Below, in pieces: positions 2,692 to 15,255 of a stretch of 22,206 nucleotides of DNA. The position numbers and the translations under genes are program-made. Numbering within the stretch: the first letter of the stretch is position 1; each line of letters opens with the position of its first letter. The stretch comes from a virus, in IMG/VR virus record IMGVR_UViG_3300042876_000780, positions 1 through 22,206 of that record. One strand, given 5' to 3'. Under the pieces are notes generated by a model. The model made no database searches. It saw only the letters and a list, made by a program, of their open reading frames with translations, and was not told the origin of the DNA.

Positions 2692-2720
2692 GATATAGCA
2701 GGGCACTAAGGAAGGGTCAA
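2692..2720 (-). promoter_or_regulatory. Sigma70-like promoter of accessory operon
   Basis: Reading the minus strand, TTGACC (2720-2715), a 17-base spacer and TATATC (2697-2692) preceded by TGC, an extended -10. The predicted transcription start is near 2685 and the ATG is at 2642. The spacer end and -10 contain the shared 13-bp operator-like element (2696-2708). Confidence 0.7.
2696..2708. promoter_or_regulatory. Operator-like element O1 (TAG-N4-CTGCTA)
   Basis: The minus strand reads TAGTGCCCTGCTA. The right arm CTGCTA is intact; the left arm matches its reverse complement at 3 of 6 positions, making this the weakest of four copies. It overlaps the -10 of the promoter for the 2642 gene. A 19-bp block around it matches the plus-strand promoter at 2819-2837 at 17 of 19 positions. 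Confidence 0.6.
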
Positions 2721-2811: not shown

Positions 2812-2839
2812 CTTGCGCTCCTTAGCGTCCTGCTATAGC
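2812..2839 (+). promoter_or_regulatory. Promoter of the 2893-3754 operon
   Basis: The -10 is TATAGC (2834-2839) with an upstream TGC extended -10. The best -35 is TTGCGC (2813-2818), giving a short 15-base spacer, so the extended -10 probably compensates. Predicted start is near 2846, leaving a leader of about 47 bases to the ATG at 2893. It carries operator-like element O2 in the same position as the other three promoters. Confidence 0.55.
2823..2835. promoter_or_regulatory. Operator-like element O2 (TAG-N4-CTGCTA)
   Basis: The plus strand reads TAGCGTCCTGCTA. The left arm matches the palindrome at 4 of 6 positions and the right arm is intact. It overlaps the -10 of the promoter for the 2893 gene, in the same register as the other three copies. 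Confidence 0.6.
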
Positions 2840-3879: not shown

Positions 3880-5139
3880 CTACGCCGCTGCCCACTGGAT
3901 CCAGCTTGAGCCCTTCTCGGTGGCGCGACCCTTCTCGACGAACACGGGCATCGAGATCGTCGGGCCGTGCTCGTGGTGGGTAAGCCAGAGCGCCTGACGC
4001 GGAGACTCGAACGGGAAGTTCCCCGCGTCGGCGTACTCGTCGTAGCCCTTGATACTGCCATTCACGATTAGTCGACCTAGGTTCCGGTACTGGTGCCAGT
4101 GCGCGATCAGGAGCACGTCGTACGGCCGCTCGATCGCCTGGTTCCGGCTCCGTTTCTTGTGGTCGCCGCGGATGATCGGACCGAGCGCGCCCACCATCCC
4201 GTCTCCGCCACGGAATTGGTCCCCGTGGTTCAGGAGGTAGCGCGTTCCGAACACCTGGTAGAGCGCGTCCGGGCCGTTCGGGATCAGGAACCGGATCCGC
4301 TTGTTGCCCTCGTAGTGCCTCGCGAGGAGCTGGTAGCCGAGCCAGTCGAACGAGGTATGGGCCCGCCCCTTCGCTCGGATCTTCATCGTGACGCGGCCGT
4401 GGTTCCCCGGTACGCACGGTACGAAGACGTTCTCGAATTCTCCGAGCAGCGTGTCGAAGAAGCGGATCCGGTGGTCCCGGAGGTCGAGCACGCACGGCAT
4501 GATCTCGTCGTCGTTCGTGGCCGAGAGTTCCTCGTGGATGTCGCCCGTGGTCCCGTCGCCCCCGAGCGGTACGACGATCCCCGGGTACTTGGGGTTCACA
4601 ACGTGAGAGAAGAGGAGGTCAAGCGCATTCTCGGCAAGCGACTTCAGCCGGGCCCGAGCGATCTCCATGCTGTAGGCATTGACCCCGCCGATCTGCGTAG
4701 GGTCGACGACCTCGCCCCAATGCTCGTCGGACACGAACAGGGATGGCACGCCAGGGGATGACGCCGCGGACTTGCGAGGGCGCAGCGCCCACTCTGGGGA
4801 CTGCGCCGGAACGGAGGCGATCCGGAGGATCTCGCGCGTCACTCGTTCGTCAGTGAGAGCCGATCGCTTCGACTCGGAGAGCTCGCGCTCTAGGTCGGCG
4901 ACGCGATCGCGCAGGACAGCGGCAGGGTCGGTCGCCCCGCCTTCCTGTCGACTCACGCCCTTGCGCCAGTCGGGGCAGGACCGGGAGAGGAACAGAGAGA
5001 GGTTGGTCGGAGTGACCTTGTAGCCCATCTCGACGGACAGCGACCGGGCCGCCGCGGCCATATCGCCGTTGAACGCCACGGCCAACTCTCTCGCGCGCTC
5101 GGGCCACTTCCCCACCCAGACCGTTGCCTTGCCCGCCAT
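3880..5139 (-). CDS. Calcineurin-like metallophosphoesterase
   Basis: This is a 419-aa protein starting at ATG 5139-5137 (MAGKATVWVG) with AGGGGG upstream. A frame 33 codons longer overlaps the upstream gene and is rejected. The metallophosphoesterase motifs appear in order: D138-x-H140 (VSDEHWGE), GGD 193-195, GNH 245-247, HGD 305-307 and AHWHQ with H347 and H349. Together they make a two-metal phosphoesterase site acting on phosphodiesters such as DNA or nucleotides. Residues 15-55 look like a helix-turn-helix (ARELAVAFNGDMAAAARSLS, then NLSLFLSRSCPDW), so it may bind DNA. Residues 75-95 are a coiled coil. It is the last gene of the operon, 23 bases after the primase-helicase, and may act as a nuclease in phage DNA processing. 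The exact substrate is not visible. Confidence 0.85.
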   Translation of the reverse strand: MAGKATVWVGKWPERARELAVAFNGDMAAAARSLSVEMGYKVTPTNLSLFLSRSCPDWRKGVSRQEGGATDPAAVLRDRVADLERELSESKRSALTDERVTREILRIASVPAQSPEWALRPRKSAASSPGVPSLFVSDEHWGEVVDPTQIGGVNAYSMEIARARLKSLAENALDLLFSHVVNPKYPGIVVPLGGDGTTGDIHEELSATNDDEIMPCVLDLRDHRIRFFDTLLGEFENVFVPCVPGNHGRVTMKIRAKGRAHTSFDWLGYQLLARHYEGNKRIRFLIPNGPDALYQVFGTRYLLNHGDQFRGGDGMVGALGPIIRGDHKKRSRNQAIERPYDVLLIAHWHQYRNLGRLIVNGSIKGYDEYADAGNFPFESPRQALWLTHHEHGPTISMPVFVEKGRATEKGSSWIQWAAA

Positions 5140-5162
5140 CGTGCCCCCTGTACCCAGCGCCC

Positions 5163-7346
5163 CTAGAACGGCGCTACCGTCGGATCGACGTAGACGTAAT
5201 CTCTCACACCGTCGGCCATCTTGCGCCTTCGCTCCCAACTCATCGCCTTCAACACGCGGCCGACGCGCTGCTCGTCACGGTCGGTCCAGTGCTCGATCTT
5301 CTTGTCGATCGCGCCGACGAGTACCGCGCTGATCTTGGTCTCCGTGATCTTGTGCTGAGAGGCCCACGCCCGGATCCGATCCTCCCACGGGTCGCGCTTG
5401 ACGAAGGCTTCCTGAAACCGCTCGAGGTCGGCCTCTTCCGCCTTCGTGAGCCCGTGCTCCTCGCCAGTGGTGTACGCGGCGAAGGCCTCGGCCCAGATTT
5501 GATCGCGCCACTCAGCGAGCTTCGCGAAGTTGAACTCGCTGGGGGTCTCGACGATCCAGTAGCGACGGTCTCCGCCGCCTCGGCCTTCGGTCAGGATCTC
5601 ACGCTCGTTCGTGGTGCCGCAGAGTACGAACCGCCGAGCGTGGAGTTCCATCTCTCGCGCGTACGGGGCACGGAACCGGTCCTCAGCGGAGGAGATGAAG
5701 CCTTTGACCGTGTTCACGCTGCGAGCGCGCTGCATTGATTCGAGCTCACCCCACTCGTAGATCCACGTGGTGTGAAGCTTTAGGTAGGCGTCGTTCTTGT
5801 CGTTTAGGTCCATCGCGGTATCGCCGAACCACGCGGCCGACGCGAGGATCTTGAAGAAGCTCGACTTCCCCACGCCGCCGGGCCCGACGAGGATCAGCAC
5901 TCCGTCGGCCTTCACGCCGGGCTGCTCAACGCGAGCCACCGCGGAGATCAGCCACTTCCGGATCAGCGTGTTGGTCAGGTCGGTGCGCGGCACCCCGAGC
6001 ACGTCCTCGGCGATCGAGTCTATGCGCTGCACTCCATCCCAGACGTTCGACCGTAGGTAGTCGCGAACGGGGTGGAAGCGTCGTTCGTGGGCGACCTGGC
6101 GCACGCCATCCTCGATGTCGGAACGGGAGAATTTGTACCCCTTGTCCTCGCTCTCCCCGAGCTCGGTCTCGCAGAGTTCGCGGACTCGGAGGTAGTCGGT
6201 CTCGACGACCGGGCGGCGGTTGATGGTGACGGCTAGGGTCAGCTCGTTGAATTCCAGCACGCCGCGCCCCAGCACCTTCTCGCGCAGTTCGGGCGTGCGC
6301 AGGATGAAGGTGCACGATCCGTAGGAGTTGGACTTGAGCAGGCGATCGCGCTCGGAGCGGATCGGCGTGACCGTGGCCGGCTGGCCGCCGCCGCTTGACG
6401 CGGCCTGCGGTGGGGTGGGCTTGGCCGGCGCGAGGTTGCCGCAGGCGCGGAGGTGCTCGATCGGCGACCGCTTGGCCTCCCACGCGTCGAGGTCGAGCGC
6501 GTCGCCGACCCAGCATGAGGTGCTCTTCTTGCCGGCGCCCGCGTGGTTGGCGCTGAAGCAAGCCCACTTCGAGCCCTCGGAGTCAGGGATCCCGCCGAAG
6601 CACCCCTTGTGCGAGCACACGGGGCAATCGCCCGATCCGGACTTGGGGTACACGCGTGGGTGCTCGCGGTTGTACGCGGCGACCGCGTCGCCGATCTCCA
6701 TGGCAGCCGGCGAGACGAGCGTCATCACGCGCGCGGGCGGCGCTAGGTCGCGCGGCTCGTACCCCTCCTCGCGCATGACAAGGACGCTGGCATCTCGGCG
6801 CACGCCGTCTACGACGCACCGGGGGGCGAACAGGAGCCGCGCGAAGTCGAGCAACGCCGGGCCGTCGACGTGGTAGCCCGCGCGCCCGGGAGCGGCCAGG
6901 GGGAGACCCGCGGCGCCTAGGGCCGCTGCGACTTTGTCGGCGGCGCCCTGCGCGGCGCGCGAGTAGAGCTCGCGGTCGGACACGGGCGCCCGGAACACGA
7001 ACACGATGCGGGCGCCGCGCGGGGTGAGGTGCATCAGGGATCCGGGCAAGAGGCCCAGCTCCGCCGCGGTGCGCACGGTCGCAGCGACCTCGGGGGTAGG
7101 CGCGCAGTGGTCGCCCTTCGCGTCCTCGTGGTCGAGGTCGATCTGGACGGCGCTCGAGGAGCGCCAGCGCTCCGTCCCGCGGTGACCGCCGCTCCAGTCG
7201 TGAGCCGACCACCAGCGCTCTCCGGTGGCGGGGATGGCGTTGAGCGCGTCGGCGAGCGCGCGAGCCGGCGGGACGGTGTCGGGGAGCGGAACGACTTCGC
7301 CCTGCGGCCTCTGGCGGCCGAGCCCGACCGTGATCGAGAGCCCCAT
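5163..7346 (-). CDS. AEP primase / VapE-type SF3-like helicase
   Basis: This is a 727-aa protein starting at ATG 7346-7344, in a TGATG overlap with the VRR-NUC stop and with GGAGGGG upstream. The N-terminal part resembles an archaeo-eukaryotic primase/bifunctional polymerase domain: acidic pair D70 and D72 (VQIDLDHED), with a following R-G-hydrophobic strand at 110-118. A zinc ribbon follows: C241-x2-C244, C249 and C263 with FSANH. The C-terminal half is a Virulence-associated E (VapE) ATPase: Walker A GPGGVGKSS at 488-496, Walker B-like WIYEWGE at 528-534, CGTTNE sensor at 576-581 and RR at 594-595. The family primes and unwinds DNA for phage or island replication. It is a likely replication initiator for this phage. 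No separate DNA polymerase is visible in the window. Confidence 0.88.
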   Translation of the reverse strand: MGLSITVGLGRQRPQGEVVPLPDTVPPARALADALNAIPATGERWWSAHDWSGGHRGTERWRSSSAVQIDLDHEDAKGDHCAPTPEVAATVRTAAELGLLPGSLMHLTPRGARIVFVFRAPVSDRELYSRAAQGAADKVAAALGAAGLPLAAPGRAGYHVDGPALLDFARLLFAPRCVVDGVRRDASVLVMREEGYEPRDLAPPARVMTLVSPAAMEIGDAVAAYNREHPRVYPKSGSGDCPVCSHKGCFGGIPDSEGSKWACFSANHAGAGKKSTSCWVGDALDLDAWEAKRSPIEHLRACGNLAPAKPTPPQAASSGGGQPATVTPIRSERDRLLKSNSYGSCTFILRTPELREKVLGRGVLEFNELTLAVTINRRPVVETDYLRVRELCETELGESEDKGYKFSRSDIEDGVRQVAHERRFHPVRDYLRSNVWDGVQRIDSIAEDVLGVPRTDLTNTLIRKWLISAVARVEQPGVKADGVLILVGPGGVGKSSFFKILASAAWFGDTAMDLNDKNDAYLKLHTTWIYEWGELESMQRARSVNTVKGFISSAEDRFRAPYAREMELHARRFVLCGTTNEREILTEGRGGGDRRYWIVETPSEFNFAKLAEWRDQIWAEAFAAYTTGEEHGLTKAEEADLERFQEAFVKRDPWEDRIRAWASQHKITETKISAVLVGAIDKKIEHWTDRDEQRVGRVLKAMSWERRRKMADGVRDYVYVDPTVAPF

Positions 7347-7738
7347 CACCCCCTCCGCGCTTCGTCGAGTGCCTGGGCGACGGCCTCTTCGGCTGTGGCG
7401 CCTTTCGCGAGGACGTAGATGCCCCCGTGCTTCACGATCATGTCGCGCCACCGATCTTGAGCGGGTGAGGTGCGGCCGTCCTCTGCCTTTACCTCAATGC
7501 CGACTGCGCGGCCACGCGGGGCGAGCACCCCCATGATGTCGGTCTGTCCCTCTACACCGTAGGTGACGGGGCGGAAGCCGCCGGCCATCCGCTGGCGCAG
7601 GTCTACAAAGGCCTTGCGCGCGGCTGGGGTGATGGGCTGCCAGGCAACGCCCGTGTTGGACCGCCAGATGCGTAGGTCTGGGAGGGAACCGAACCGTAGG
7701 AGGAGTCGCTGTTGCAGCACCTGCTCAGGGGTGCTCAT
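7346..7738 (-). CDS. VRR-NUC family nuclease
   Basis: This is a 130-aa protein from ATG 7738-7736, starting 14 bases inside the end of the methyltransferase gene. VRR-NUC signatures are present: RSNTG at 26-30, G-x2-D67 in GQTDIMG, E82-x-K84 in GIEVKAEDG, and Q94 in TSPAQ. This is the PD-(D/E)XK core as in stand-alone phage VRR-NUC proteins, related to the FAN1 nuclease domain. Known stand-alone members cut branched or flapped DNA, so a role in recombination or replication-fork processing is likely. The length is normal for a single-domain member. It ends in a one-base overlap with the primase-helicase start. Confidence 0.9.
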   Translation of the reverse strand: MSTPEQVLQQRLLLRFGSLPDLRIWRSNTGVAWQPITPAARKAFVDLRQRMAGGFRPVTYGVEGQTDIMGVLAPRGRAVGIEVKAEDGRTSPAQDRWRDMIVKHGGIYVLAKGATAEEAVAQALDEARRG

Positions 7739-8951
7739 GGGCGTCCACCATGGCGATCCTCTCTCCGATCCACCTCATGACGTTCACGGCCATGGAATTC
7801 CCGAGCGCCGCGTAACGCGGTCCGTCGCTGGCGCCCGGGATCAACGTGTAGTCGTCGGGCATCCCCATGAGCCGCTCGCACTCACGCGGCGTGAGGCGAC
7901 GGACGCCGCGGCCAGCGTGCACGCCCATGCCGATCGATGTGGCCCCGAGCGAAGGGGAAAACTCGCCTCCGGTGATCGGCTCCTGCGTCATGTGGAACGC
8001 GATGCAGGGCACGCCGCCCGCTGCACTGCCGCTGCCCTTGCGGAGCGTACCGGGCGGCCCCACGTTTGAGCCGTGGCACTGGAACGCGATGGCGGGCACG
8101 CCCTGTCCCATTTTCCCGCCGCCTCGGGACAGAGCACCCGCGACGTTTCCGTCTCCGCCCTCCAGCCTCACCTCGGCGCGAGAGTTCTCGGCGAAGGCGA
8201 TGGGGATCAAGTGCCCCTCCTTCGTCGACGAGTCAGGCCCCTTCGCGTCGCGCTCCTGTAGCGCCCACGCGACGGCCGGTACTAGCCCCCCATCGAATTC
8301 GTGGTCGGTCCCAAGTCCGCCACCGCCTCGAGTGCGCGCCGCAAGGGTTCCGGAAGGTCCTTCCCCCGCTTCTCTGCGCGGCGGAGGATCCCCCGACAGG
8401 CTCGCGCGCTCAAAAAGTACCGCCGCGGCACGCTGCCAGGCGCCTCCAGAATGTCCGACAACGAACACACGCCGTCGTCGCTGAGGGACGGCGCGAGCAT
8501 GTGATTCCACTCGGACGTACTGAGCGTCAAGAACTCGGTAGGCGAACCCATACCCGAGTTCTGCCAGCCCCCCGAGGATGGAGCCAAAGGCCCGTCCTTC
8601 GTCGTTCGACAAGACACCGGGGACGTTCTCCCAGACCACCCAGCGGGCGCGTGTGCGCTGAGCAAGGCGAAGGAATTGTAGGGCCAGCCCGCCACGAGGA
8701 TCGTCCAGCCCCTCCCCGAGTCCTGCAACGCTGAAGGACTGGCAGGGGGTGCCGCCGACGAGAAGATCGACAGTTGGTCCGCTGATCTTCGTGAAGTCGC
8801 CATGGTTCGGAGTCTCCGGGTAGTGGTGCGCGAGGACGCGGTTCGGGAAGTCGGCAATCTCGGCGTAGAACTCGGCGCGCCACCCGAGCGGTCGCCACGC
8901 GAGCGTGGCCGCCTCGATCCCGCTGCAGACGCTGCCGTAACGGAGGGTCAC
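7725..8951 (-). CDS. C5-cytosine DNA methyltransferase (Dcm-like)
   Basis: This is a 408-aa protein from GTG 8951-8949, in a GTGA overlap with the upstream methyltransferase. Motif I is SVCSGIEAA (7-15); motif IV is GGTPCQS with the catalytic Cys at 70; motif VI is ENV (108-110); motif VIII is QRRRRVF (157-163). Motifs IX/X are RRLTPRECERLMG (351-363) and GNSM (384-387). The enzyme transfers a methyl group from SAM to cytosine C5. The region between VIII and IX (about 165-350) holds the target-recognition part. It shows repeated segments starting VAWAL, IAFAENS, IAFQCHG and IAFHMTQ, a feature common in phage members. No cognate endonuclease is adjacent, so it is an orphan, probably anti-restriction. 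The target sequence cannot be read. Confidence 0.92.
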   Translation of the reverse strand: MTLRYGSVCSGIEAATLAWRPLGWRAEFYAEIADFPNRVLAHHYPETPNHGDFTKISGPTVDLLVGGTPCQSFSVAGLGEGLDDPRGGLALQFLRLAQRTRARWVVWENVPGVLSNDEGRAFGSILGGLAELGYGFAYRVLDAQYVRVESHARAVPQRRRRVFVVGHSGGAWQRAAAVLFERASLSGDPPPRREAGEGPSGTLAARTRGGGGLGTDHEFDGGLVPAVAWALQERDAKGPDSSTKEGHLIPIAFAENSRAEVRLEGGDGNVAGALSRGGGKMGQGVPAIAFQCHGSNVGPPGTLRKGSGSAAGGVPCIAFHMTQEPITGGEFSPSLGATSIGMGVHAGRGVRRLTPRECERLMGMPDDYTLIPGASDGPRYAALGNSMAVNVMRWIGERIAMVDAHEHP

Positions 8952-9715
8952 GGCGTCGACTCGTCGGGAGGTGGAGTCTTGAACAGTTCCCCGTTCTCGC
9001 CGGTCGACGCGAGGCGCTTGCGTGCGATCTCGACGTAGTCCGGATCGCGCTCGATTCCGAGGAAGCGCCGCCCTTCCTTTAGGGCCGCAACGCCGTGTGA
9101 TCCCGAGCCACAGAAGGGATCGACCACCAGCGCGTCGCGAGCGGCGGCCACTCGGATCAGCGACTGGATTAGATCGACCGGCTTCTGCGTCGGGTGGTTC
9201 TTATCCTGCCCTCGGACACGCCCGAAGCGGAGCACGTTCGAACCGCACAGATCGTGGAACTTCCCCGGGCCGTTGCAGAGGTGGATCGCAAGTTCGTGCG
9301 TGGGCTTGAACCCCGTACCCATCCCAGCGCTACCCTTGTCCCAGACGATCATGTTCTGCAGGCGCAGTCCGCCCGACTCCAGTGCGGGCGCCAGGTTGGC
9401 CCACATGCGCCAGTCGCAGAAGACGATCAGCGATCCGCCGGGAATTAGGATCCGCTCCGCCTCGAAGGCTACCGAACGTAGGAGCCACACGAGCCCGGGC
9501 GTCGTCATGTTGTCGCCGGCGAACCACGTCACGGCGCCCGACTGCATCCGTTCTGAGGCGATCCCCTGTGACGTGGCCTGTCGACGGGTGGCCTCGGTTG
9601 AGCCCCCGGAGCAGTACGGGGGATCGGTCACGACGGCCCCAACGCTGCGCGAAGGGATCCTCTGCAGCACGGGGATGCAGTCGCCCTGCTCAATGGACCA
9701 GCGGTCAGTGCTCAC
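8948..9715 (-). CDS. N4/N6 site-specific DNA methyltransferase (II)
   Basis: This is a 255-aa protein from GTG 9715-9713 with AAGGAG nine bases upstream. A longer TTG frame to 9766 would overlap the helicase and is rejected. Catalytic motif IV DPPY is at 31-34; HPTQKP at 174-179; motif I DPFCGSGS at 199-206. The order IV, then recognition region, then I is the beta class of amino-methyltransferases, which methylate adenine N6 or cytosine N4. The recognition region is about 35-170. It is an orphan methyltransferase, between the helicase and the C5 enzyme, and ends in a GTGA overlap with the latter. Confidence 0.9.
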   Translation of the reverse strand: MSTDRWSIEQGDCIPVLQRIPSRSVGAVVTDPPYCSGGSTEATRRQATSQGIASERMQSGAVTWFAGDNMTTPGLVWLLRSVAFEAERILIPGGSLIVFCDWRMWANLAPALESGGLRLQNMIVWDKGSAGMGTGFKPTHELAIHLCNGPGKFHDLCGSNVLRFGRVRGQDKNHPTQKPVDLIQSLIRVAAARDALVVDPFCGSGSHGVAALKEGRRFLGIERDPDYVEIARKRLASTGENGELFKTPPPDESTP

Positions 9716-9734
9716 GTGCGAGTACTCCTTCCAT

Positions 9735-11249
9735 CTAGAGAACGAACCTCCACCGAGGCTCCTCAAAGAACGTCCGCCGATACTCGGACAGCACCCACCC
9801 CGCCGACCGTCCGTCGGCGCGAGCGCGGGCCACTAGACGTCGCAGCTCTGCCATCTTGGTCGTCTGCGAAGCGGACCGGCCGCGCTCGGCGAGCTCCTCC
9901 AGCGCGATGGCTCGGACGCCCTCCTCGATCTCCTGGACGGTGCGGCCTGCGAGCGGAGGGCAGTGGCCGCAGCAGGGGCACGCGGGCAAGCGAGGATCGT
10001 AGAGCGCGAAGCAGTTGGAGCACGAACGCACCGCCGCCGCGTTCTCGCCGTTCATGTCGCCGTTGCTGCCCTTGACAGGCCGCACATCGAGCGACCACTC
10101 GCGGTCCGCGTCGGGCAGGCCGTGCGTCATCACGCACCCAGCGTGGTCGTGGATGCGCGCGGAGCGCTTCACGTTGGTCGACCCGCAGTGACGGCACCCC
10201 TGGACGTTCCACGAGGTGTCGCCGCGGCAGTCTCGGCAGACGGGGCGTAGCACGCGCCCGACCATCTGCAGGTAGAGCCCTTGCGACTTGGTCGGCCGTG
10301 CCAAGATGCAGCACTCGACGCGGGGCGAGTCCCATCCCTCGGTCAGGACCCCGACGTTGCAGACGACGGTCGTCTCTCCGTCCTCAAGGCGCTGGAGGAT
10401 GGCGCCGCGCTCGTTCTTCTTGGTCTTGCCATCGACGTGCTCGGCTCGCACGCCCGCCGCCTTGAAGCGCTCGACCATCTTCAGGGAGTGCTCGATCGTC
10501 GCGGCGAAGAGGACGGTCCGGCATCCGCCCGCCTTCTCGACCCACTGCTCGACGATGTTACCGACGATCGCAGTCCCACCCATGACCTCGCCAAGATCAT
10601 GCTCGTTGTAGTCACCGCCCGTCGTGCGGACGCCGGAGAGATCGGGGACGTCGAAAGCGAAGCCAGTAGCGGGCGTCAGGTAGCCGCGATCGGTGAGGCC
10701 CCGGATCGTCTCGACAACCACGAGGCCGCGGAAGAGATCACCAAGGCCTTTGTTGTCGGAGCGGACTGGCGTGGCCGTGAGCCCGATCGCGGGGACGCCC
10801 GGGAAGCGGTGCAGCACCTTCATGTACGAGTCGGCGCGCGCGCGGTGCGCTTCGTCGATGATGATCAGAGTCGGCTCCGGGATCCGCCCGACTCGCTTCT
10901 CGCTGAGAGACTGGATGGAGGCCACCTGCGTCCGCAGCCACGGCTTCCAGCCCGCTCGGTGCGCAGCGGAGACGATCCCGTGCCGCACGCCAGCGCCCGT
11001 GAGGCGGGCACTGCATTGCTCGAGGAGTTCTTTCCGATGCGCGATGAAGAGGACCGAGCCGCGTTCGTGCTCCTCGATCGCCCGCGCGATCAGGCTCGCG
11101 GCGATCGTGGTCTTGCCCGCGCCGGTCGGAGCCACTAGGAGCGCGTACGGGTCCACTCCTGCCCCCGCTAGGCTCGCGAGTGCCTGACGGACACGCGTCT
11201 CCGCGTCCGCCTGATAGTCGCGCAGCCTCTGAGGGGCAGGAGTGGCCAT
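9735..11249 (-). CDS. SF2 DEAH helicase with zinc ribbons (RadD-like)
   Basis: This is a 504-aa protein from ATG 11249-11247. SF2 motifs are clear: Walker A PTGAGKTT 41-48, motif Ib region TQVASIQSL, DEAH 132-135, TAT 158-160 and motif VI QMVGRVLRP 328-336. After the helicase core are Cys pairs at C338/C341 with C352/C355 (a zinc ribbon) and C410/C413 with C424 to C430 (a second). The arrangement resembles the RadD/YejH family, which assists recombination and repair, and phage DEAH helicases of the same type. The final 60 residues (SASQTTKMAELRRLVARARADGRSAGWVLSEYRRTF) are helical and conserved in phage versions. It probably unwinds DNA in replication or recombination. A true RadD interacts with SSB, and an SSB-like gene lies directly upstream. 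Confidence 0.9.
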   Translation of the reverse strand: MATPAPQRLRDYQADAETRVRQALASLAGAGVDPYALLVAPTGAGKTTIAASLIARAIEEHERGSVLFIAHRKELLEQCSARLTGAGVRHGIVSAAHRAGWKPWLRTQVASIQSLSEKRVGRIPEPTLIIIDEAHRARADSYMKVLHRFPGVPAIGLTATPVRSDNKGLGDLFRGLVVVETIRGLTDRGYLTPATGFAFDVPDLSGVRTTGGDYNEHDLGEVMGGTAIVGNIVEQWVEKAGGCRTVLFAATIEHSLKMVERFKAAGVRAEHVDGKTKKNERGAILQRLEDGETTVVCNVGVLTEGWDSPRVECCILARPTKSQGLYLQMVGRVLRPVCRDCRGDTSWNVQGCRHCGSTNVKRSARIHDHAGCVMTHGLPDADREWSLDVRPVKGSNGDMNGENAAAVRSCSNCFALYDPRLPACPCCGHCPPLAGRTVQEIEEGVRAIALEELAERGRSASQTTKMAELRRLVARARADGRSAGWVLSEYRRTFFEEPRWRFVL

Positions 11250-11274
11250 GGTCGTGTCGGCTCGGGGGGTGGGT

Positions 11275-11736
11275 CTAGAACGGCGGCTTGTTGGGGTCGA
11301 CGACGGGGGCCTCGGCGCCCGCGGCAGCGGCGGCCTTCGCGGCCTCCTCGAGCGCCGCGTACGCCGCGGAGATCGCCGCCTCGCTCTTGCGGTCGCTCGC
11401 GTCGGTCGAGACCTTGAACACCTTCATCGTCCCGCGCTTGGTCGCGCGGTCGGACGCGTACTCGATCCGCGTGAAACTGCCGATCGAGACGAGGCCCATC
11501 TTCGCGTTGATGTCGGCCGACCCGCCGACGCAGAGGAGACCTCCGGCCTCGTCGATGAACTCGTAGACCTCCTGGTCGCCCTTCGGGCGGCCGTCGGGCC
11601 ACGTGCCGACGCCCTTCTGCGTGAGGGACTTCGCGAAGTGGCCCTCAACGAAGTCGCCGAACTTCTCGAACTTGGCGAAAAGCTTCTCGATCTGCCCCGC
11701 GTTGGGGTCCTGCACCTCGGTCATGTTGCGCGCCAT
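11275..11736 (-). CDS. Putative OB-fold single-stranded DNA-binding protein
   Basis: This is a 153-aa protein from ATG 11736-11734, with AGGAG upstream. The centre alternates strands (GDFVEGHF, EVYEFIDEAGGLLCV, MGLVSIGSFTRIEYA, GTMKVFKVS), a pattern seen in phage OB-fold ssDNA-binding proteins, where a conserved G-x-KVF-V strand follows a TKRG turn. The C terminus is an Ala-rich linker then PVVDPNKPPF, ending in Pro-Pro-Phe like the acidic DxPF tip by which SSB recruits partner enzymes. The identification rests on pattern and context: the helicase gene is 25 bases downstream and recombination genes are on the opposite operon. It could be another OB-fold protein; family not certain. Confidence 0.5.
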   Translation of the reverse strand: MARNMTEVQDPNAGQIEKLFAKFEKFGDFVEGHFAKSLTQKGVGTWPDGRPKGDQEVYEFIDEAGGLLCVGGSADINAKMGLVSIGSFTRIEYASDRATKRGTMKVFKVSTDASDRKSEAAISAAYAALEEAAKAAAAAGAEAPVVDPNKPPF

Positions 11737-11747
11737 GTGTCTCTCTC

Positions 11748-11936
11748 CTAGCCCTGCCTGCGTGACGCCGGCGGGGGATCCGCCGGCGGTGTTGCGTCGC
11801 CCTTGTTAGAGTTGTCGCCCGTGTCGTGGGGTCGAAGGTCGTTGGGTACGGTGGGTCCCGTGCGTCTTCGTGCCTCGCAGTGCGCGTCGTAGCAACCTTC
11901 GCACGAGGCGGATCCGAAGGGGCACTCGGCGATCAC
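11748..11936 (-). CDS. Cys-rich 62-aa protein
   Basis: The start is chosen as GTG 11936-11934, overlapping the upstream TGA as GTGA with GAGG six bases before it. A longer frame from GTG 11957 lacks a binding site. The product reads VIAECPFGSASCEGCYDAHCEARR, with four Cys (C5, C12, C15, C20) in 16 residues, likely a zinc knuckle or small metal-binding site. The rest is a Pro/Asp-rich unstructured tail. It lies between the membrane Cys protein and the SSB-like gene. Function unknown. Confidence 0.5.
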   Translation of the reverse strand: MIAECPFGSASCEGCYDAHCEARRRTGPTVPNDLRPHDTGDNSNKGDATPPADPPPASRRQG

Positions 11937-12307
11937 CTGCCACCTCGGCGCAGCCACGCGGCGAGGACGTGCTCACGGTCGAGTCGCGTGCGCTTCCAGT
12001 CGGGCACCTCGCCGTGGGCCTTGAGGGTCGCGCGCGACACCTCCTTGCGCAGCGCGCGCTCGGGGATCGCGGTCTGCGGGTCGAGGTCGGCGAAGCACCT
12101 GCCGCAGACGCGGAACGGCGTGGCGAGACGAGCGAGCACCATGGGGCGCTCGCCACCGGAGGCGCGCACGACGACGAAGACGCGCCACCACGCGCCGTTG
12201 TGGCAGCTCGGGTTGCTGCACGGGTGCTCCGACTCGTACAGCACGACGGCCGCAGCGGAGAGTGAGAAGACGAGGGGTACGGCGATGGCTGCGAGGACGG
12301 CGATCAT
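11933..12307 (-). CDS. Membrane-anchored Cys protein
   Basis: This is a 124-aa protein from ATG 12307-12305 in an ATGA overlap with the methyltransferase stop, with GGAGG upstream. Residues 3-23 (AVLAAIAVPLVFSLSAAAVVL) form a single membrane segment. After it come Cys30-x4-Cys35 and Cys68-x2-Cys71, a possible zinc ribbon, then a basic C-terminal helix region (KRTRLDREHVLAAWLRR). The short N terminus makes the orientation ambiguous. If the soluble part is cytoplasmic, it would be a membrane-tethered zinc protein. A membrane protein is unusual among replication and modification genes; superinfection exclusion or membrane attachment of replication are possible but not shown. Confidence 0.6.
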   Translation of the reverse strand: MIAVLAAIAVPLVFSLSAAAVVLYESEHPCSNPSCHNGAWWRVFVVVRASGGERPMVLARLATPFRVCGRCFADLDPQTAIPERALRKEVSRATLKAHGEVPDWKRTRLDREHVLAAWLRRGGR

Positions 12308-13497
12308 GTGTGGGTACCTCCGATGATGCGTAGCTCTGCGATCCTGGCGTACTCGGGGTCGCGCTCGATCCCGATGAATCGGAACCCCTCCTGCAACGCG
12401 GCGATTCCCGTCGTGCCGCTCCCCGTGAACGGGTCGAGCACCACGCCGCCGGGCGGGGTCACAAGCCGACAGAGCCAACGCATCATGGCGATAGGTTTCA
12501 CCGTCGGATGGATGTTTCGCGCGCCGCCGTTGCGTCCTGCGCCCGCACGCGGCGAGTTGAGGCCCTCCGATCCCTCGTCACGTTCCGTGGCCTCACCACC
12601 GCCGCGCGCGGGAAGTGACTCGCACCCGAGGTCGCGCTCGCGTCGGCTCGGCTTGGCGACATAGCGGAAGACGGGGAAGAACCGGGAGGCGCCGCCCTGT
12701 GAGGCCGAGATGTCCCGTAGCGTTGCCGTGTCGGGCATCGCGCCGTAGCAGACGGAGCGGGCGGAGCGGGCGGAGCGTACCGTCCCCGCCGCCATGGCTC
12801 CGCTCTTGAGTGGGCCGCTCTGCCGGTCCAACTCTGCAACAGGACAGCCCTCGACGCACGCGCCGCCCTCGACGCATTCGGGGTCATGCGAGAAGATCAC
12901 GTTGGGCGGCCAACGGCCGGGCGGCAGCGGCGTGTCCGATCCATGGTGCTCGCCGTACGTGTTGCCGGTCGTACGCGCGAGCCCCTTCGCGCGCCACTCC
13001 TCCGCCGACATCTCATGCTCTCCCACCCTGCACCCGTCTACATTTAGCGCCCCGGTGCCGTACGCGAGGACGTTGTCGGCGACGGTGCCGACGAGCGGCC
13101 GGCGCGCCACGACGATCGGCTCATGACCCGGCTTGAGGGCCGTTCCCCACCCGTCGCGCACGCCCGCCGCCTTCTCCACGTCGAGTGACTTGGGGAACCC
13201 CGATCCGTACATCCAGTGCAGCGAGTCTCGGACCTCGAATCCCGAGTCCTCGATCGCGCACGCCATGCGGTGATAGGTCCGCGTGCCACCGAACGCGAGC
13301 AGGTGACCACCCGGCTTGAGCACGCGGTGCGCCTCGCGCCACATCGGCACCGAGTAGGCGATCCCGCTCGCGTCCCAACGCTTGCCCATGAAGCCAAGCT
13401 CGTACGGCGGATCCGTCACGATGGCGTCGATCGAGGCCGACTTCATGTCGGCCATCGCACCGACGCAGTCGCCGACCACCACGCGTCCGGCCGTCAC
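12304..13497 (-). CDS. N4/N6 site-specific DNA methyltransferase (I)
   Basis: This is a 397-aa protein from GTG 13497-13495 in a GTGA overlap with the XRE gene. Motif IV DPPY is at 29-32, HPTVKP lies about 25 residues before motif I, and motif I FTGSGTTG is at about 357-364, again the beta-class order (IV, recognition, I). The middle contains a Cys cluster (DPECVEGGACVEGCPVAELDRQSG), a segment common in phage methyltransferases that could bind zinc. A run of Ser-Ala-Arg repeats is encoded by a 9-bp tandem repeat at 12753. The gene adjoins the XRE regulator like a controller-protein/methyltransferase pair, but no restriction gene follows. Target sequence unknown. Confidence 0.9.
   Translation of the reverse strand: MTAGRVVVGDCVGAMADMKSASIDAIVTDPPYELGFMGKRWDASGIAYSVPMWREAHRVLKPGGHLLAFGGTRTYHRMACAIEDSGFEVRDSLHWMYGSGFPKSLDVEKAAGVRDGWGTALKPGHEPIVVARRPLVGTVADNVLAYGTGALNVDGCRVGEHEMSAEEWRAKGLARTTGNTYGEHHGSDTPLPPGRWPPNVIFSHDPECVEGGACVEGCPVAELDRQSGPLKSGAMAAGTVRSARSARSVCYGAMPDTATLRDISASQGGASRFFPVFRYVAKPSRRERDLGCESLPARGGGEATERDEGSEGLNSPRAGAGRNGGARNIHPTVKPIAMMRWLCRLVTPPGGVVLDPFTGSGTTGIAALQEGFRFIGIERDPEYARIAELRIIGGTHT
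12753..12777. repeat. 9-bp tandem repeat inside methyltransferase gene
   Basis: CGGAGCGGG is repeated about 2.8 times (12753-12761, 12762-12770, partial to 12777). On the coding strand it encodes Ser-Ala-Arg repeats in the recognition region, without breaking the frame. Length variation here by slippage would add or remove three residues. Confidence 0.7.
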
Positions 13498-13751
13498 CTG
13501 GACGCGGGACTGGACTTCGGGGGGAAGATCAGGGCGGCGAGGTCGAGGCGAGCGGCCCTCGGTGCGCCCGACTTCTGCACCGCCGCGAGGATGGCCGCTG
13601 CGCTAGCGGGGCTGAACCGCCCACCGCGCTTACCAGAGAGCACCGCGGAGATCGTCGGCTGGACCACGCCGGAGCGGCGCGCGAGTTCGGCCTGCGTCCA
13701 GCCGAGCGCGTCGAGAGCCTTGGCGAGAGGGTGTGTCGCGGGTGTCGTCAT
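13494..13751 (-). CDS. Small XRE-family transcriptional regulator
   Basis: This is an 85-aa protein from ATG 13751-13749 (MTTPATHPLA). A frame 26 codons longer would begin upstream of the promoter and is rejected. The helix-turn-helix spans about residues 8-45: scanning helix WTQAELARRSG (18-28) and recognition helix VQPTISAVLSGKR (30-42), typical of XRE/Cro. The size matches Cro-type repressors and the controller (C) proteins of restriction-modification systems. It is the first gene of the minus-strand operon and overlaps the methyltransferase as GTGA, so it controls its own level. A 13-bp operator-like element lies in its promoter and in three others, making it the likely regulator of all four. 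It could act as repressor, activator or both. Confidence 0.9.
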   Translation of the reverse strand: MTTPATHPLAKALDALGWTQAELARRSGVVQPTISAVLSGKRGGRFSPASAAAILAAVQKSGAPRAARLDLAALIFPPKSSPASR

Positions 13752-13760
13752 GGGTCGACG

Positions 13761-13790
13761 GCAATAGCAGCCCGCTACGTGAGCCGTCAA
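13761..13790 (-). promoter_or_regulatory. Promoter of XRE/replication operon
   Basis: On the minus strand: TTGACG (13790-13785), 18-base spacer, TATTGC (13766-13761) with TGC just before it. Only 9 bases separate the -10 from the ATG at 13751, so transcription would start 2-3 bases before the start codon: a nearly leaderless mRNA with no room for a ribosome binding site. Operator-like element O3 spans the -10. Confidence 0.65.
13765..13777. promoter_or_regulatory. Operator-like element O3 (TAG-N4-CTGCTA)
   Basis: The minus strand reads TAGCGGGCTGCTA. The left arm matches the palindrome at 5 of 6 positions. It overlaps the -10 of the XRE promoter, supporting autoregulation. Confidence 0.65.
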
Positions 13791-13884
13791 CGTTTCTCGC
13801 GCACCTACATCGAGAAAGATCGCGCTCACTCACCGCGCATCATCTATAGCGACAAGAATTCGACCGAATAAAAAAGAAACGGCG

Positions 13885-13914
13885 TTGACCTGCCGTGTAG
13901 CAGTCTGCTAACAG
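13885..13914 (+). promoter_or_regulatory. Promoter of recombination operon
   Basis: TTGACC (13885-13890), 18-base spacer and TAACAG (13909-13914), a weak -10 preceded by TGC. An AT-rich stretch with six A's (13869-13876 region) sits just upstream. The predicted start is near 13921 and the ATG is 13954, leaving a leader of about 33 bases with GGAGG. Operator-like element O4 lies in the spacer and -10. A weak -10 with a perfect palindromic site would suit tight or activator-dependent control. Confidence 0.6.
13898..13910. promoter_or_regulatory. Operator-like element O4, perfect palindrome
   Basis: TAGCAG-T-CTGCTA is a perfect 6-1-6 inverted repeat and the best copy of the four. It overlaps the -10 of the plus-strand promoter. 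An odd-centred palindrome of this size is typical of XRE/Cro dimer operators. Confidence 0.7.
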
Positions 13915-13953
13915 GCTCACTCACACGACACACGCCACACGGAGGATCACCAC

Positions 13954-15255
13954 ATGGCAGGGATGAAGTTCAGCACCGGCAAGCGCGCCGCTCCGATCTG
14001 GGTCCACCTCTACGGTCCCGAGGGGATCGGAAAGTCCACGTTCGCGAGCGACGCGCCGGATCCGGTGTTCATCGACGTCGAGCAGGGGACCGACAACCTG
14101 TCGACCTCGCGCGTGACGTTCGACGACGCGGGCGAGCGCACGCGGCCGACTACGTTCGCCGAGGTCATGACCGCGCTCGGCTCGCTCGCCCGAGACCCGC
14201 ACCCGTTCAAGACGATCGTGCTCGACACGGCCGACGCGCTGGAGGCGCTGATCTGGGCGCAGGTCTGTGCGCAGGCGCAGATGAAGACGATCGAGGACTT
14301 CGGGTACGGCAAGGGGTACGTGATCGCGCTCAACCCCTGGCGCCAGTTCGTCGACGCGGTCGAGACGCTCCGCGCCAAGGGCTACAACGTGATCACGCTC
14401 GGGCACGCGTTGATCAAGCCCTTCAAGAATCCGGAGGGCGAGGATTTCGACCGCTACATCCCGAAGCTCCACGAGAAGGCCAGCGCGCTGATCAAGGAGC
14501 GCGCGAACGCGGTCCTGTTCGCGAACTGGCGCAACGCGACGCGGAAGGACTCGCAGACCAAGCGGGTCCGCGGCGTGACCGACAAGGCGCGGCTGATCTA
14601 CACGACGCGCACCGCGGCCTACGACGCCAAAAACCGCTACGACCTGCCCGAGGAGATGCCGCTGTCGTGGGTGTCGTTCTACTCGGCGGTGCAGGCGCAC
14701 AAGCCCGCAGACCCCACGGCGCTCCGCACGGCCATCCTCGAGAAGATCGAGCGGCTCCCCGCCGAGGGTCGCGAAGCCGCGACCGGCTACCTTGCCGCCG
14801 CCGGCACCGATGCGGTGAAGCTGTCGAAGCTGAACGGGTGGATCAACGCGCAGATCCCGGAAGTGGACGCCCCCGCCGCTCCGTCCAACGTCCCGGGACA
14901 AGAGCCCGCGCTCCAATCGTCGGCGCAGATCGCCGAGCGTGAGGCCAAGGCCGCGGCGCCTGCCGCACCCGTCCCCGCCGCCGCCGATCCGCTCACCCCC
15001 GGCGTGGACGTGCCCGCCATGGCCCCGCCCCCCACGCCCGTCGCTCCCGTCGTCGACCCCAAGGCCGACCTGCACAAGGAGATCCTCGACGCGGCCGACA
15101 AGTGCAAGACCGCGATCGACCTCGCCAAGTACGTCCTGCCCCTGATCAAGAAGGCGATCGACGGCAAGCGGTTCACGGAGTCCGAGCTCGCCGAGGTCCG
15201 CCAGTGGTACACGGACACGGCAGCCGCGCTGACGAAGGGGGCGGTAACGCGATGA
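13954..15255 (+). CDS. Sak4-like AAA ATPase, phage recombination
   Basis: This is a 433-aa protein from ATG 13954, with GGAGG eight bases upstream. Walker A GPEGIGKST is at 21-29 and Walker B KTIVLDT at 86-92; residues 130-150 (VETLRAKGYNVITLGHA) fit the next core strand. This is the RecA-like fold of the phage AAA_24/Sak4 family, which promotes single-strand annealing or strand exchange, often together with SSB. The core ends near 265. Residues 300-355 are a Pro/Ala-rich linker and 360-433 a helical C-terminal domain. The gene heads the plus-strand operon and is followed (ATGA overlap) by a DUF5758-like gene, then an Fe-S nuclease. This resembles an annealase plus exonuclease pair. A RecA-like relative cannot be excluded, but the length and motifs fit Sak4. 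Confidence 0.8.
   Translation: MAGMKFSTGKRAAPIWVHLYGPEGIGKSTFASDAPDPVFIDVEQGTDNLSTSRVTFDDAGERTRPTTFAEVMTALGSLARDPHPFKTIVLDTADALEALIWAQVCAQAQMKTIEDFGYGKGYVIALNPWRQFVDAVETLRAKGYNVITLGHALIKPFKNPEGEDFDRYIPKLHEKASALIKERANAVLFANWRNATRKDSQTKRVRGVTDKARLIYTTRTAAYDAKNRYDLPEEMPLSWVSFYSAVQAHKPADPTALRTAILEKIERLPAEGREAATGYLAAAGTDAVKLSKLNGWINAQIPEVDAPAAPSNVPGQEPALQSSAQIAEREAKAAAPAAPVPAAADPLTPGVDVPAMAPPPTPVAPVVDPKADLHKEILDAADKCKTAIDLAKYVLPLIKKAIDGKRFTESELAEVRQWYTDTAAALTKGAVTR

Follow-up and report, generated by a model that had tools for sequence, protein, structure and literature searches.

The Cro proteins of phages 434 and lambda are small HTH_3 proteins with palindromic operators in two divergent early promoters, one of them their own. 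In phage PY54, the cI and cro mRNAs were mapped as leaderless by 5'-RACE and there is a single palindromic operator; PY54 Cro is believed to act against cI while leaving its own synthesis unrepressed (PMC4488713). PaaR2 and lambda cI are further leaderless phage regulators, and PaaR2/YdaS of an E. coli O157:H7 cryptic prophage combines a leaderless XRE-type regulator, a divergent second operon and intergenic operators (PMC8630535). The controller (C) proteins of restriction-modification systems act through a C-box, in which two dimer sites lie upstream of the C gene itself, and this gene generally stands before a restriction gene (PMC6237814). Leaderless C transcripts are documented for C.PvuII (PMC2997769) and C.Csp231I (PMC4824078), and most C proteins contain an SQE sigma-contact motif (PMC4824078).

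The XRE gene described here lies in a window of 22,206 bases, the IMG/VR virus record analysed, and resembles each of these systems in part. It shares with 434 and lambda Cro the small HTH_3 protein and the operators in two divergent promoters, but there is one operator per promoter instead of three, the gene heads a leftward replication/methyltransferase operon whereas Cro heads the rightward one, and no partner CI gene is seen in the window fragment. A leaderless repressor gene with a single palindromic operator is predicted, as in PY54, except that here both facing promoters carry the operator. The likeness to PaaR2/YdaS extends to the divergent arrangement, but that regulator controls a toxin-antitoxin operon, whereas XRE would control replication and methyltransferase genes. 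C.PvuII, C.Csp231I and C.Kpn2I have a small XRE fold, an operator of their own and, in several cases, a leaderless mRNA; their two-dimer C-box, position before an endonuclease gene and SQE motif were not found for XRE.

For comparison we used a relative, IMGVR_UViG_3300042876_000590 (L004/L070/L071; 30.8 kb), which shares most of the window and has terminase, portal, head protease and head morphogenesis genes and therefore belongs to a tailed-phage group. The comparison is thus of two independent phages, both records being fragments; a near-identical copy of the window locus (L003/L005) was not treated as an independent case. Among 40 loci of more distant AAA_24 relatives, none had an XRE gene of this family divergent from the AAA gene. 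Ten genome matches to the XRE profile proved to be generic HipB-like/XRE genes, and a mycobacteriophage match covered the HTH half only and lay among hypothetical genes with no methyltransferase adjoining; both were set aside. No Rfam families or tRNAs were found in the window. Elsewhere in the window a Radical-SAM-like protein is encoded at 964-2040 (Pfam PF04055, E=3e-5, below the cut-off), and the rightward operon of the relative includes a gene with long pentapeptide-like repeats (DLRGADLSRA...; L004 3565-4515) that is apparently missing from the window. The features of the locus are listed in Table 1.

Table 1. Features of the XRE locus and of the second promoter region (window coordinates).
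Feature	Position	Strand	Remarks
XRE (HTH_3) repressor gene	13751..13494	-	85 aa, ATG at 13751
XRE promoter TTGACG-18-TATTGC, extended -10 TGCTA	13790..13761	-	Same boxes in L004
Operator TAGCGGGCTGCTA in XRE promoter	13777..13765	-	Covers spacer and first two bases of -10
Facing promoter TTGACC-18-TAACAG of rightward replication operon	13885..13914	+	Same position in L004
Operator TAGCAGTCTGCTA, perfect 6-1-6 palindrome, in facing promoter	13898..13910	+	
A-tract, UP-element-like, just 5' of facing -35	13868..13879	+	A-rich in L004 too; putative function
Shine-Dalgarno GGAGG of facing AAA gene	13941..13945	+	Normal leader of ~33 nt
Second-region promoter TTGACC-17-TATATC with operator TAGTGCCCTGCTA (2708-2696)	2720..2692	-	
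Second-region operator TAGCGTCCTGCTA (2823-2835) overlapping extended -10 TGCTATAGC	2823..2839	+	
N6/N4 DNA methyltransferase	13497..12304	-	GTG start overlaps XRE stop (GTGA); no SD (-0.1 kcal/mol)
Rest of leftward operon	3880..12307	-	Helicase, methyltransferases, nuclease, primase-type genes
AAA_24 ATPase, first gene of rightward operon	13954..15255	+	Followed by PD-(D/E)XK nuclease, ParB-like

The XRE protein matches HTH_3 above the cut-off (E=5e-7) and has no further domain. It is 57% identical to its counterpart in the relative, and the recognition-helix region VVQPTISAVL-GKRGGRF is nearly identical in the two proteins, as a shared operator would require. The start of the gene is fixed by L004, in which the XRE ATG (6001) is the first ATG, GTG or TTG after a stop. 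Anti-Shine-Dalgarno (anti-SD) pairing calculated upstream of this ATG is +0.4 kcal/mol in the window and in the relative, that is, no ribosome-binding site is found in either phage, as the preliminary description had proposed for the window; the facing AAA genes give -9.5 and -10.2 kcal/mol, and pairing as poor as that of the XRE start occurs at 8.7% of random window positions. Sequence matches to XRE in the PDB are weak and are led by 434 repressor/Cro-type domains and HipB, and the predicted structure consists of five helices (pLDDT 74). A match to Aca11 (9lx2, E=0.04) led us to consider an anti-CRISPR-associated (Aca) regulator, but XRE heads its own operon and no acr gene was recognised.

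The XRE -35 box TTGACG (13790-13785) is followed by an 18-bp spacer, the -10 box TATTGC (13766-13761), the nine bases CGTCGACCC and the ATG. In L004 the promoter reads TTGACG-18-TAATCC and ends 8 bases 5' of the XRE ATG, a layout that has persisted despite the divergence of much of the intergenic DNA around it. The transcription start was predicted from the standard spacing between the -10 box and +1 and would fall at about 13755-13754 or on the ATG (13755-13751 overall), giving a leader of 0-4 nt. The XRE mRNA thus very probably begins at or just before the start codon, i.e. leaderless, to judge from the spacing of the boxes. The nine-base distance agrees with the preliminary description; its leader of 2-3 bases is broadened here to the predicted range, while the near-leaderless start itself gains support from the conservation of the boxes in a second phage. 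The promoter matches the sigma-70 consensus at 8 of 12 positions and is absent from the list of a consensus scanner because its -10 hexamer matches at only 3 of 6; the claim for this promoter should therefore rest on the comparison with the relative. The -10 hexamers of these promoters are weak (3 of 6), and conservation of TGCTA may reflect the operator instead of sigma. Three other elements were noted nearby. An inverted repeat, TTTCTCG-N11-CGAGAAA (13793-13817), lies directly 5' of the XRE -35 and differs in sequence in the relative. A terminator-like match on the minus strand (13896-13879) is no better than expected by chance, lies over the facing -35 and was not taken as real. The element TAGATGATGCG (13846-13836, minus strand; about 5907-5917 in L004) is identical in both phages amid the diverged divergent intergenic stretch and is a possible site for another regulator.

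An operator had been reported in the promoter of XRE itself, and the 13-bp TAGCGGGCTGCTA does lie there across the -10; that report covered only part of its reach, as the same operator is present in the facing promoter of both phages. The pattern TAGC-RNN-CTGCTA occupies the same place in both facing promoters of each phage, and a search for repeats picks out TAGCAGCCCGCTA/TAGCAGTCTGCTA in both promoters of the window, within inverted 28-nt arms that are 71% complementary. All four facing promoters (two per phage) fit the promoter unit TTGACNNNNNNNGTAGCRKNCTGCTA exactly, and this unit occurs twice in the window, where 0.01 occurrences are expected by chance even with three mismatches. A scan of IMG/VR found it in this phage group and otherwise as a single copy on an unrelated contig (L006, the third match), with no XRE or AAA neighbour, which we took as chance. 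Each operator reaches as far as the second base of the -10 hexamer. Its centre lies at about -17 relative to the predicted start, where occupancy should keep polymerase out. With a matrix trained on the two operators of the relative only, the top four sites in the window are 2823, 13898, 13765 and 2696, all of them within promoters, and the next unrelated site scores 10.6. The same scan of the intergenic region found no second operator upstream in either facing promoter of either phage, the next best scores being 3.4 in the window and 6.1, inside the gene, in L004.

The sites at 2696 and 2823 lie over the extended -10s TGCTATATC and TGCTATAGC, respectively, of a second divergent promoter pair ~11 kb from the XRE promoters. 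This pair precedes two small SD-led genes of unknown family, which encode 98 aa (minus strand) and 67 aa (plus strand). The 2823 operator is identical to one operator of the relative, and the 2696 operator scores 12.59, close to the value of 12.7 that the best site of a window exceeds in some 5% of simulated sequences. The relative carries different DNA at this region, and the second pair is accordingly a feature of the window only. The operator copies suggest a wider regulon, and the XRE protein probably acts on these promoters too.

As previously described, XRE heads an operon of eleven contiguous leftward genes (13751 to 3880) and overlaps the first methyltransferase as GTGA, which we located at 13497-13494 and found in the relative as well. 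The order is XRE, N6/N4 methyltransferase, two small genes, a 153-aa protein, a ResIII-type helicase, a second N6/N4 methyltransferase, a C5 methyltransferase, VRR-NUC, a VapE-like primase/helicase and a phrog_284 exonuclease-like protein. The relative has an MT-A70 methyltransferase, unrelated to that of the window, in the slot behind XRE; it too is joined by GTGA and lacks an SD. The coupling is therefore kept while the methyltransferase family changes. The first and second window methyltransferases have no counterpart in the relative, whereas genes farther down the operon share 71-99% identity. The slot would thus appear swappable, which from two phages is a lead and not a rule. We also note that the operon encodes three DNA methyltransferases (12304-13497, 8948-9766 and 7725-8951), two of which are absent or replaced in this close relative, a pattern of methyltransferase exchange.

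Several other interpretations were weighed. The XRE message might start upstream, from another promoter, with the gene merely SD-less behind an ordinary leader. The weakness of the XRE -10, the conservation of TAGATGATGCG between the phages and a TATAGA at 13848-13843 are in keeping with this, but there is no -35 match near the upstream element (TTATTC), and the conserved unit of TTGAC, operator and -10 adjoining the XRE ATG mirrors the facing promoter exactly. The SD is missing from XRE either way, and we regard an upstream start as improbable. About equally improbable, in our view, is that XRE is a CI-like maintenance repressor of a temperate phage, encoded by a leaderless leftward gene as is lambda cI and directed at the rightward early operon. 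Such an arrangement, in which the leaderless gene diverges from an SD-led rightward early gene, is known from lambda PRM/PR and PaaR2/YdaS (PMC8630535). The operon of XRE, however, carries helicase, primase and nuclease genes in place of lysogeny functions, an equivalent operator is present in the XRE promoter itself, the protein is without a C-terminal domain, and no integrase was recognised among the window proteins scanned, both records being fragments.

We consider it still less likely that XRE is a C-protein-like controller which would first switch on, and later repress, its own leaderless operon and in this way time methylation. A small XRE protein, a near-leaderless start and an operator of its own are common to C genes (PMC4824078, PMC2997769). 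The structural comparison put forward in the preliminary description was run and does not discriminate: the best Foldseek match of the predicted model is C.BclI (E=0.068) and C.AhdI, C.Kpn2I and C.Esp1396I are also listed, but C.BclI, HigA, HipB, C.AhdI and 434 Cro match about equally and none of the matches is significant. C proteins are also absent from the PDB sequence-search matches. The distal site of a C-box is the activating one, and here each promoter has a single operator at about -17 with no second site upstream; the matrix scan of the intergenic region of both phages found no paired dimer sites of the C-box kind. No type II endonuclease family, or other restriction gene, was recognised among the 11 genes of the leftward operon, where a divergent endonuclease of unknown type is conceivable, and the SQE position is occupied by TQA in the window and KQA in the relative. 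The likeness suggested at the outset holds for the predicted leaderless mRNA and self-control and fails for membership; the analogy is superficial, and it is the arrangement of sites that decides. A broader proposal is a phage early-gene governor in which translation of the leaderless repressor cistron is tied to that of an exchangeable methyltransferase slot (N6/N4 in one phage, MT-A70 in the other). Feedback by the repressor would then also set the dose of genome methylation, a solution akin to that of C proteins but reached with no restriction enzyme. This we consider unlikely.

One site inside each promoter, with the same operator in the facing promoter and in the second pair, amounts to a Cro-like early-repressor layout. 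In our view, XRE is most likely a small, Cro-like, self-limiting repressor of divergent early promoters, which is translated leaderless and blocks both promoters via the shared palindrome. This agrees with what the locus contains, namely a phage-borne small XRE/HTH_3 protein with no further domain and palindromic operators in divergent promoters including its own. The sequence itself shows the gene, the boxes and their spacing, the operators, the lack of an SD and the overlap, as well as the retention of these features in the second phage, and from them we infer the transcription start, binding, repression, reinitiation and timing, with operator position as the sole pointer to repression by XRE. 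Early in infection both divergent promoters would fire, and the leftward message would start at, or 1-4 bases 5' of, the XRE start codon and be translated leaderless. The SD-less methyltransferase would then start by termination-reinitiation at GTGA. Accumulating XRE dimers would bind TAGC-RNN-CTGCTA across the spacer and -10 of both promoters, blocking RNA polymerase, and would also bind the second divergent pair 11 kb away. The outcome would be shutdown of the XRE operon and of the facing replication operon.

The circuit is a neat but familiar phage design. For an uncultured phage group it offers a clean circuit of one repressor and two promoters that can be put to the test, and its operator and divergent promoter pairs (one at least and probably two) are defined from sequence alone. 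It is also a likely further example of a phage regulator translated from a leaderless message. Given the apparently swappable methyltransferase slot, one may ask whether phages link the dose of methylation to feedback on their early genes.
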